Shown here: in pieces, positions 2,481 through 5,788 of the stretch | How the letters are laid out: every line of letters starts with the position of its first letter | How positions within the stretch are numbered: position 1 is the stretch's first letter | Origin: Anaerolineales bacterium | GTDB taxonomy: Bacteria; Chloroflexota; Anaerolineae; Anaerolineales; Villigracilaceae | DNA length: 64,000 nt | Reading direction: 5' to 3' | NCBI GenBank assembly: GCA_016927315.1 | Contig: JAFGMV010000079.1 | Coordinates: forward strand, 1-64,000 | Translations under genes and position numbers: made by a program | Notes under the pieces: generated by a model | What the model saw: only the letters and a program-made list of their open reading frames with translations | Databases searched by the model: none | What the model was told of the DNA's origin: nothing

Positions 2481-3800
2481 TTAATGAACAGACTGAAAGT
2501 GAACCTGCTCCTGCAGTTGTTCATCCAGCTGGTGTGTGCCGGGAGAAAGGTACACTGCGACAACCGAAACCATTTTCAGGAGGCCGATCAGGAAAAAGAC
2601 CAGGGCAATGCCCCTCCCGGAGCCAGTCCCAAACCAGTTCCCCAGACTGACAGCCAGGATACCTCCGGAATGCAGCAGCGGATCGAAGACCTGGTCGGCC
2701 AGACCGCCTGCTGCCAGGTAAGCGGCCAGTGTGGCTGCCTTGACGACCGCCTGCTTGAGAGAGAAAATGCGTCCCTGCAAAGCCTGCGGTACCTGGGCCT
2801 GCCAGACGGCCTCGCCCAAACCAGAGACGAACGCCAGTGTCAGGTGAGCCAGGAAAGCCCCACTGGCAACCAACCAGACCAGCGGCCGTGAGCCCATCAG
2901 GCAGAACGCCACCCCACTGACCAGTTCGAAGACCAGCAGCCCGGTCAGCCGGCGCCGGGGTCCGCCCCAGGCAGACAGGATCAGACTGCCCGCCAGCAGA
3001 CCGCTTCCGGCCAGGGTTAGGGTCAGTCCCAGTTCACCCGGTGCGGCGAACCCCAGGATCATAGGCACCACCATAACTGCGAAGAGGTTCCATAGAAAGG
3101 AAAACAAGACCTGGTAGCGCAGTAAATTGACCAGGCCTCTCTGGGCACGCAGCCCCTCCCAACCAGTTTGCAGTGCTTCGAACCAGGGTGTTTTCTGGGT
3201 CTCCAGCCCGGAATCAGCGCGTGGATATTCGACCTCAGGCGGGATGCGTACCAGCATCAGGCTCAGGACCGCAACACCAAAGGTAGCCAGATCGATCAAC
3301 AGCACCCCGGGTATGCCAATCATCAACACCAGTACCCCCGCCAGGGCCGGCGCCAGGACCTCAGCCAGGCCCTGGCCAAATTGAAGCATCCCATTGGCGC
3401 GGCCCAATTGGGATCTTTCGATGGCGGAGGCCACATAAGCCTTGTAGGCCGGATTCTGGAAAGCATTGAACCCCGCGCTGAGGGCGGTCAGCAAGTAGAG
3501 TTGCCAGACCTGCATCTGCCCGGTCAGGAACAAGCCGGCAAAACCCAGGGTGCAGGCGGCTGCCCCGGCATCTGCCAGGATCATCATCCAGCGGCGGCTG
3601 AAACGGTCGATCAGTACACCTGCAAACGGAGAGAGCAGCATTTGCGGCAGGGCTGCGCATAGGGCCACCAGCGCAAACTTGCTGACGGAACCGGTCTGCT
3701 GGTAGAGCCAGATACCCAGTGCAAACCAGCTCAGTCCGGATCCGAAGATCGAGACCACCTGCCCGGTCCAGACCATGAAGAAAGATTTGAAGTGTTTCAT
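2481..3800 (-). CDS. MFS transporter, drug-efflux (macrolide efflux-like) type
   Basis: 439-residue inner-membrane protein with about twelve hydrophobic segments. The N-terminus (WTGQVVSIFGSGLSWFALGIWL) and the loop 2-3 motif (LIDRFSRRW) fit the Mef-like branch of the major facilitator superfamily, which exports drugs by proton antiport. The open frame continues upstream to 4037. I place the start at 3800 because GGAGA sits directly before that ATG, family alignment starts there, and the upstream stretch is a structured leader. Expression appears controlled by that leader (see the promoter and terminator at 3834-4001). The real substrate cannot be read from sequence. Confidence 0.87.
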   Translation of the reverse strand: MKHFKSFFMVWTGQVVSIFGSGLSWFALGIWLYQQTGSVSKFALVALCAALPQMLLSPFAGVLIDRFSRRWMMILADAGAAACTLGFAGLFLTGQMQVWQLYLLTALSAGFNAFQNPAYKAYVASAIERSQLGRANGMLQFGQGLAEVLAPALAGVLVLMIGIPGVLLIDLATFGVAVLSLMLVRIPPEVEYPRADSGLETQKTPWFEALQTGWEGLRAQRGLVNLLRYQVLFSFLWNLFAVMVVPMILGFAAPGELGLTLTLAGSGLLAGSLILSAWGGPRRRLTGLLVFELVSGVAFCLMGSRPLVWLVASGAFLAHLTLAFVSGLGEAVWQAQVPQALQGRIFSLKQAVVKAATLAAYLAAGGLADQVFDPLLHSGGILAVSLGNWFGTGSGRGIALVFFLIGLLKMVSVVAVYLSPGTHQLDEQLQEQVHFQSVH

Positions 3801-3833
3801 TGGTGTCTCCTTTCCCGAATTACTCGGGATAAC

Positions 3834-3865
3834 AAAAATGGGCCGGCAGTTTTCTACCAGCCCAT
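3834..3865 (-). terminator. Leader (attenuator-like) terminator just upstream of the MFS gene
   Basis: On the minus strand the stem ATGGGC/GCCCAT extends inward through GG/CC and CT/AG pairs, separated by two mismatches, to an AAAA loop, and is followed by five T. It ends 34 bases before the MFS start codon, inside the mRNA leader, where an unconditional terminator would silence the gene. A second perfect hairpin (7 bp, 3-base loop) lies at 3883-3899 and a third at 3929-3953. Confidence 0.75.
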
Positions 3866-3928
3866 CTTTGCCAATAAAATAAGCGACCCACAGGGTCGCG
3901 GTAAAGGGAATGCCCCGGAAAAGAAAAT

Positions 3929-3960
3929 CCCGGCTGTGGGATCCACAACCGGGTTTTTTT
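3929..3960 (+). terminator. Hairpin in the MFS leader, terminator-shaped on the plus strand
   Basis: CCCGG-TGTGG pairs with CCACA-CCGGG with one C-A mismatch, followed by seven T on the plus strand. On the minus strand it is the first hairpin of the MFS leader. No plus-strand gene ends directly before it, so its role is more likely in the leader RNA. Confidence 0.45.
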
Positions 3961-3972
3961 CTCAGAAGGCGC

Positions 3973-4001
3973 ATTCTAGACTGAATTCTCCCGGGTGTCA
4001 A
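3973..4001 (-). promoter_or_regulatory. Consensus sigma70 promoter for the MFS leader transcript
   Basis: Minus strand: -35 TTGACA (3996-4001), 17-base spacer, -10 TAGAAT (3973-3978). Transcription would start near 3966, giving a leader of about 165 bases that contains three hairpins. Confidence 0.72.
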
Positions 4002-4017
4002 GGGTATCTGGAAACAT

Positions 4018-4054
4018 GACTCTGCGGGGAGGTCCAAAGGACCTCCGACGCAGA
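4018..4054. repeat. Hairpin repeat related to the dispersed TGCG...GCAGAC elements
   Basis: TCTGCG (4021-4026) pairs with CGCAGA (4049-4054), and GGAGGTCC with GGACCTCC around an AAA loop. The left edge ATGACTCTGCG resembles the ends of the repeats at 31007, 37926 and 59799. The rest of the 4038-4372 gap holds a short hairpin (ACACCC-CTTC-GGGTGT near 4124-4139) and no gene I can support. Confidence 0.6.
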
Positions 4055-4319
4055 CTTATCGCTTTCTGGTAGATTACACTCGCCCGTGCGATAGGCTGCA
4101 ATCTCCATATTTCCGCAGGCTACACCCCTTCGGGTGTCCAGTCAAGCTGGATGAACTATGCTTCGCGAAAGCCTGCAATCCTTTTTCGGTCAGATATAAA
4201 AAAAGAAAGTCCTGGAAGAATAGACTGGATCCAGAAAGGTTGAATACAGGATACTACCAGGGTCCGAGGACATTTCCCCTGAAAATCACGAACGCTCCAT
4301 TCCGCACGGATCGGTGCTG

Positions 4320-4328: not shown

Positions 4329-4372
4329 TGCGCAGATCATCAAGCCGGTCACACCCAACTGGGAGGGTTATC

Positions 4373-5788
4373 TTGAAAACCAGACGAAAAATCATTGTGA
4401 TCTCGATTGCCGTACTGCTGGCTGCTCTATTGATTGGGGAAATCCTTCTTGAAAACACCCTCCAGGGCTATTATCACCAGGCCGAGCAGGCAGAGCTCTT
4501 CGAAAATATGAGCACAGGGTATGGATACACCCGCAGATTCGCAACCGAAACACATACACACGAAATTCTCGTTCGAAATCACCCCAATTTACGGTTTGCA
4601 TTCTGGAGCAGAGGTCTGACCGGCAGTGTTCAGGTAAACATTCTCGACAAAGACGGAACGCTGGTCTATGAACAGCAGGGACGCAACGGCAGCATTGCAG
4701 AGAACCTGGATCTTGAATCCGGTCACTACACCATCCAACTGGTTTTTACCAATTACTCCGGTTCTCTAAAATTTGGTTTTTCGAACGCCAAACTTATCAG
4801 GGCTCTTCCAGATAAAAACTACCAGTACATCCAAGCCGATCCGGATTCAGGTTTCCACTGGGATTACATCCTGTATACCCCTGAAGAAGTACCATCCCCA
4901 TACCTGTTGGTCATTCCCAACAACACCGGTTTTGAAGAAAGCGACATGGCTTTTCACCAAGCCTCAGCCCAGGATTTGATCGTCTGGATGAGCAGCTTTG
5001 CCGATGAACTTGGAACGCCTTTACTCGTGCCCGTATTCCCGCGCCCGGGAGGAGAACTGGACGAGTTTTACACCCACAACCTGGATCGGAATGCCCTGCT
5101 GATGACACAGGACGGCTACTTGCGCCTCGACCTGCAGCTGCTGGCCATGGTGGAGGATGCCCGGACCAGGCTGGAGAAAAGACAGATCCCGACCGGAGAG
5201 CGCTTTCTGATGTGGGGCTTCTCGGCCTCGGGTACCTTCAGCGACCGCTTCAGTCTGCTGCATCCGGAGCGGCTTATAGCCGTTGCAGCAGGCGGGTGTA
5301 CCCACAGCCTGCCCTTCCCGGAATATAAAGGGGAAAACCTGCCCTACCCGATCGGGACCTATGATTATAAAACCATTGCCGGTGAACCATTTGACATGCA
5401 GGTATTTGCATCCCTGCCGCGCTTCCTGTACAAGGGCAACCAGGATTCCGGTGGCACGATCACTGAAGATGAAAATGTCTACCCTGCTGACGAATATTTC
5501 GAACTTTTCGTGCGCGCAGCCCTTGAAGCCCGGCTTGAAACATATCCGCGGCCCATCCTGACAGGTTTTGAAATGACCCAGGAAGAAGAAGATGCGATCA
5601 AATATCGCATCTACGATGGCGCTGTCTTTGTAGATGAGTTCATTGCTGTCAGCGAGATCTATGAAGAAGCAAATCTGGATAAGTCTGTTTTCAGGCTTTA
5701 CCCCGGCGTCGGACACGAATCCACGGGTGAAATGCTGGAGGATGTTCTCAATTTCTTCCTGGTGAAAATTGCCCGGGAGAGGCAATGA
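4373..5788 (+). CDS. Membrane-anchored alpha/beta-hydrolase-like protein
   Basis: 471 residues if started at TTG 4373, which has GGGAGG six bases upstream and begins directly before a positively charged segment and a hydrophobic signal anchor (residues about 8-25). An upstream in-frame start is possible but lacks a ribosome site. Residues about 55-150 look like a beta-sandwich (PPC-like) domain. The rest resembles an esterase: GFSASG puts a candidate nucleophile at Ser284, with GVGHES near the C-terminus as candidate base. It probably acts outside the membrane; substrate unknown. It overlaps the CPBP gene by four bases (ATGA). Confidence 0.72.
   Translation: MKTRRKIIVISIAVLLAALLIGEILLENTLQGYYHQAEQAELFENMSTGYGYTRRFATETHTHEILVRNHPNLRFAFWSRGLTGSVQVNILDKDGTLVYEQQGRNGSIAENLDLESGHYTIQLVFTNYSGSLKFGFSNAKLIRALPDKNYQYIQADPDSGFHWDYILYTPEEVPSPYLLVIPNNTGFEESDMAFHQASAQDLIVWMSSFADELGTPLLVPVFPRPGGELDEFYTHNLDRNALLMTQDGYLRLDLQLLAMVEDARTRLEKRQIPTGERFLMWGFSASGTFSDRFSLLHPERLIAVAAGGCTHSLPFPEYKGENLPYPIGTYDYKTIAGEPFDMQVFASLPRFLYKGNQDSGGTITEDENVYPADEYFELFVRAALEARLETYPRPILTGFEMTQEEEDAIKYRIYDGAVFVDEFIAVSEIYEEANLDKSVFRLYPGVGHESTGEMLEDVLNFFLVKIARERQ

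Follow-up and report, generated by a model that had tools for sequence, protein, structure and literature searches.

The stretch of DNA analysed here (the window) comprises 64,000 nucleotides of contig JAFGMV010000079.1 from an Anaerolineales bacterium of the phylum Chloroflexota (family Villigracilaceae), and within it a gene for an MFS transporter is preceded by a structured leader and by a gene that runs the other way. The features of the locus are as follows.

4370-5788, plus strand: divergent neighbour, from the ORF call, open from 4319 with a likely start at TTG 4370
4001-3973, minus strand: near-consensus promoter TTGACA-17-TAGAAT (-35 box TTGACA at 4001-3996, spacer of 17 nt, -10 box TAGAAT at 3978-3973), of a kind enriched in noncoding DNA and with an equivalent in L141, L142 and L143
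3966, minus strand: transcription start, inferred from promoter spacing, 7 nt past the -10 box
3953-3929, minus strand: terminator hairpin T1, CCCGGTTGTGG-ATC-CCACAGCCGGG, tail ATTTTCTTTT, from the fold and the terminator score
3899-3883, minus strand: terminator hairpin T2, GCGACCC-TGT-GGGTCGC, tail TTATTTTATT, from the fold, the score and alignment with T1 of L142
3874-3834 (core ~3864-3839), minus strand: terminator hairpin T3, tail TTTTTGTT, from the fold, the score and alignment with T2 of L143
~3829-3812, minus strand: small fourth hairpin, CCCGA-GTAAT-TCGGG, without a U-tract, directly upstream of the ribosome binding site
3813-3807, minus strand: ribosome binding site AAAGGAG, from the sequence
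3800-2481, minus strand: MFS transporter of 439 aa, start ATG 3800, identified by a match to MFS_1 (PF07690)

In sequence the MFS protein resembles an efflux-type transporter, with no substrate assigned. It scores 118 bits against the MefC model (curated cut-off 870) and 173 bits against TIGR00900 (H+ antiporter; curated cut-off 319.6), values far under the curated cut-offs that place it outside the Mef macrolide efflux proteins, to which it is related at superfamily level only. The divergent neighbour at 4370-5788 has no match in Pfam or NCBIfam.

The window promoter matches 11 of 12 consensus positions. Matches at 11-12 of 12 positions with a spacer of 16-18, counted across 1.06 Mb of this genome, number 18 in 135 kb of noncoding DNA and six in 928 kb of coding DNA, and the promoter is credible because such matches are strongly enriched outside genes. 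From the inferred start at ~3966 to the ATG at 3800 the leader is ~166 nt long, and a U-rich tract follows each of its three hairpins; it folds (3966-3790) at -85.5 kcal/mol vs a mean of -49.7 (sd 4.4) for shuffled sequences, giving a z of -8.15 with none of 200 shuffles folding as well. The original prediction of a TTGACA-17-TAGAAT promoter driving a three-hairpin leader of about 165 bases is thus confirmed. All three hairpins score above zero on a self-coded scale of the d'Aubenton-Carafa type (T1 6.2, T2 13.3 and T3 36.3), with T3 forming up to ~20 pairs in the full fold and ending ~33 nt before the ATG, in agreement with the terminator that had been placed 34 bases before the MFS start. 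Because the neighbouring gene runs the other way, T1-T3 are not terminators of an upstream gene.

Terminator-like hairpins were absent from 207 of the 230 divergent leaders in the 1.06 Mb, a set that omits the window gene itself (for which an in-frame start further upstream had been called) and whose gene calls are mechanical; 22 leaders carried one such hairpin, one carried two and none carried three. On the d'Aubenton-Carafa-type scale, which is stricter, at least one terminator was found in 3.7% of 218 divergent 5′ leaders. In 24 of 512 leaders of the genome a terminator ends 15-60 nt ahead of the start. Apart from the leader of the window, a single divergent leader of the 1.06 Mb carries two terminator-like hairpins; located at L054:3496-3976, it lies before a gene that presumably resembles one for a macrodomain protein.

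The reading frame of the MFS gene extends upstream without a stop as far as a TTG at 4037, so that the earlier statement of a frame open through the leader holds, but the frame is not coding-like, with a codon log-odds of -0.03 per codon vs 0.23 ± 0.13 for gene windows (the lowest 2.6% of gene windows). The sole ATG of this open frame upstream of T1 (3974) falls inside the -10 box. A translated N-terminal extension of the MFS protein was rejected on codon usage and on the N-termini of homologues.

Searching 151 other genomes of the family with the leader DNA gave no match and a scan of genome contigs with the single MFS protein found nothing, while a scan of genome contigs with an MFS alignment returned 80 loci. 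The nearest MFS homologues (61, 52 and 52% identity), which come from other families of the order, share the layout of a promoter and a first hairpin 9-15 nt past the inferred start, with two or three terminators following the promoter. The original prediction would have counted as refuted had no homologous leader stood before related transporters, and the layout was found in the closest relatives. The loci with a recognisable promoter besides the window are given below.

L141 (the same gene as L114): 61% identity, TTGACA-17-TACAAT, two terminators
L142 and L143 (L115 and L116): 52% identity, TTGACT-16-TACAAT, three terminators with the middle one bulged
L160: 47-48% identity, TTGACC-17-TATAAA, two strong terminators

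Two terminators each are also present in L148 and L176, and L144-L147 and L225 have a single terminator directly before the ribosome binding site; MFS homologues of ~42% identity or less have no such leaders. A tree built from 113 homologues groups the window with L141, L142 and L143 in a clade that has full support, and all four members have the layout. A wider clade of 13 members has an SH-aLRT of 94 in what is a quick tree, with L160 of unusual composition. Within this wider clade a terminator 15-60 nt before the start was found in 10 of 13 members on a strict reading and 11 of 13 on a looser one, vs 1 of 100 other homologues, with a Fisher value of 5e-11 that overstates the evidence because the members are related; placed on the tree, the terminator label requires 3 changes vs ~12 for shuffled labels.

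The leaders of L142 and L143 can be aligned over their whole length, and pairing in their last hairpin is kept through three double-sided changes, a weak signal by itself because two sequences are compared and 64 of 500 shuffles scored as high. T2 and the following linker of the window align with T1 of L142 (7/500 shuffles as good), T3 of the window with T2 of L143 (21/500) and the T1-T2 junction of L141 with the T2-T3 junction of L143, the three cross-alignments being equalled by 6-21 of 500 shuffles. Compared directly, the window and L141 leaders align at chance level (199/500 shuffles as good). The cross-locus hairpin alignments among the window, L141, L142 and L143 suggest a single ancestral leader of promoter plus terminators in which the individual hairpins have turned over.

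The genes upstream of the MFS gene differ between the loci: the window, L141 and L160 have a divergent gene there, while L144-L147 and L225 have a codirectional gene upstream and L148 a 16S rRNA gene. The hairpins of L144-L147, L225 and L148 could end the transcript from the upstream gene or the 16S rRNA. The L148 16S rRNA gene (L148:94-1593) is complete and precedes the MFS gene (start ~1796) by ~200 bases in the same direction, with the two terminators between them where a 23S gene would normally follow. A small ribbon-helix-helix-like protein (weak RHH_4 match; 84-88 aa in L145 and L225) is encoded codirectionally upstream of the MFS gene in L144, L145, L146, L147 and L225, and tblastn found no convincing copy of it in 1.06 Mb of the window's genome.

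Beyond the promoter, the minus strand of 3967-4240 holds strong short palindromes, such as GGAGGTCC-TTT-GGACCTCC, and at 4136-4172 (minus strand) a sequence of 24-37 bases, TTTCGCGAAGCATnGTTCATCCAGCTTGACTGGAC, that recurs at 88-97% identity in other genera of the order (G034, G235, G242, G312 and G330; loci L094-L098 and L112), often in several copies. No other convincing copy was found in 1.06 Mb of the window's own genome, and the sequence is possibly a palindromic repeat or the remnant of a mobile element. A 6S RNA in this structured stretch was rejected, the 6S gene being on another contig, and the weak matches in Rfam, AaHKsRNA41 (E 0.03) among them, were taken as chance.

A promoter followed by intrinsic terminators and then the gene, with no promoter in between, is the layout of an attenuator, and the promoter, the terminators and the layout of the relatives together support the proposal of an attenuator-like leader before an efflux-type MFS gene in Chloroflexota. 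The leader is probably a promoter-proximal tandem-terminator attenuator that acts without a leader peptide. Sequence and comparison show the promoter, the terminators, the lack of a leader peptide and the conserved layout; termination in vivo and regulated read-through are inferred. RNA polymerase would start at ~3966 and meet T1, T2 and T3 in turn, most transcripts stopping there as short RNAs of ~48, ~95 and ~135 nt, and the efflux gene would be reached only by polymerases that pass all three terminators because the gap of ~33 nt between T3 and the start has no room for a promoter. Stacking terminators in this way would give a very low basal level, and anything that lowers termination would have a steep effect on output. 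Read-through may be under regulation instead of being fixed, with a protein, a small molecule or an overall shift in termination efficiency as the candidate regulator, and the arrangement suggests that the gene is switched by polymerase read-through of stop signals. No antiterminator or trigger for T1-T3 was identified by sequence. A LoaP-like antiterminator is unlikely because a single NusG-type protein, and no LoaP paralogue, was found in the genome (93% complete), and a search of the genome for ANTAR proteins gave no match, though the control likewise matched nowhere.

The original prediction had a moving or stalling ribosome open the terminator. Such attenuation is known from ermD, mefA, msrD, vmlR and bmrCD, where the ribosome stalls on a leader peptide. 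The efflux-type target gene, the terminator near the start codon together with the long open frame, and the presence of very short ORFs such as ATG-GGC-TGG-TAG within the 5′ arm of T3 are in keeping with this; the vmlR uORF is just a tripeptide (PMC9226507). Against it, the leaders of the window, L141, L142 and L143 lack any start codon preceded by a Shine-Dalgarno sequence (that of L160 has one weak candidate, inside a hairpin), no conserved leader peptide was found among the leaders and the extension frame is not coding-like. Among the five leaders with a recognisable promoter, the first hairpin invariably begins ~9-15 nt past the inferred start, too early for a leader peptide to fit in front of it. 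When alternative pairings were sought by structure prediction, as had been proposed, the strongest upstream pairing with the 5′ arm of T3 reached -12.2 kcal/mol vs -21.9 for T3, and no competing structure of comparable strength was found. A ribosome-driven switch appears very improbable here. A metabolite riboswitch using the terminator as its expression platform would account for a structured leader ahead of a transporter, but Rfam gave no match in the window or 12 related loci, the leader holds little besides terminators and there is little sequence conservation between relatives, making this reading more improbable still.

It is unlikely that the hairpins serve as insulation, stopping stray upstream transcription or ending a short noncoding RNA gene within 3967-4240. 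That stretch is more structured than shuffles (fold z -3.2), T1 is terminator-like on the plus strand too (tail TTTTTTT) and thus bidirectional, and a codirectional gene or 16S rRNA lies upstream in L144-L147, L225 and L148. In the window, L141, L142, L143 and L160, however, the first terminator is separated from the upstream region by a near-consensus promoter, and because of this position the terminators would act on the gene's own transcript. Nor does the upstream stretch contain an Rfam family, and a DNA search of wider scope, with the entire intergenic region as query, returned only the short dispersed repeat and short marginal matches. A static attenuator, in which the terminators keep the amount of a costly membrane transporter low and constant and nothing is switched, is a possibility that we regard as doubtful yet worth keeping in mind. 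It would fit a layout kept while hairpin sequences turn over, and also the result that a search for conserved elements yielded neither an aptamer nor a protein site, an antiterminator or a leader peptide. A weak promoter, however, would achieve the same more cheaply, and where all four members of the clade combine a strong consensus promoter with stacked terminators, a switch is rather to be expected.

The tandem-terminator attenuator proposed for the window shares features with several described systems. The drug-inducible attenuators of efflux and ribosome-protection genes considered here, those of mefA/msrD (PMC10314930), vmlR (PMC9226507) and bmrCD (PMC4191407), depend on leader peptides. 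At the macrolide attenuator of mefA/msrD in Streptococcus a leader with an intrinsic terminator precedes an MFS efflux gene, with the drug-stalled ribosome acting on the leader peptides MTASMRLR or MYLIFM (MefAL, MsrDL; PMC10314930). The window protein matches the Mef models, below their cut-offs, whereas its leader has no detectable leader peptide and three terminators. The vmlR leader of Bacillus subtilis, with 219 nt, four stem-loops, a uORF with a Shine-Dalgarno sequence and antiterminator and anti-antiterminator pairings (PMC9226507), is likewise short and structured with an intrinsic terminator near the gene and an extra small hairpin by the ribosome binding site; in the window the main hairpins are all terminators, and no competing pairing of similar strength was found. 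In bmrB-bmrCD, a ribosome-mediated attenuator, the terminator lies inside the translated leader gene bmrB (PMC4191407), and while a multidrug-type transporter likewise stands behind a terminator there, no translated leader was detected in the window. The likeness first drawn to the drug-inducible attenuators of Firmicutes therefore stands for the layout but not for the mechanism of leader peptide and ribosome. Hairpin clusters that act together in intrinsic termination are known from operon ends, where they follow the stop codon (PMC8355165); they too employ tandem hairpins as a termination unit, whereas those of the window sit between promoter and gene.

In the literature on tandem terminators and processive antitermination, and on Chloroflexi and attenuation, no described case was found in titles and abstracts, subscription papers lying mostly outside that scope. 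A conserved leader that consists almost wholly of tandem terminators, in a phylum as little studied as this one, would indicate another mode of sensing. There is a slim chance that a Chloroflexota family of peptide-free attenuators, with two or three terminators placed right after the promoter of an efflux gene, senses a general loss of intrinsic termination with the polymerase itself as the sensor; if so, compounds that target the polymerase, or a dedicated antiterminator, would be examples of what causes termination to be lost. A tandem-terminator leader of this kind would predict short RNAs that can be tested for, and a trigger to be sought.
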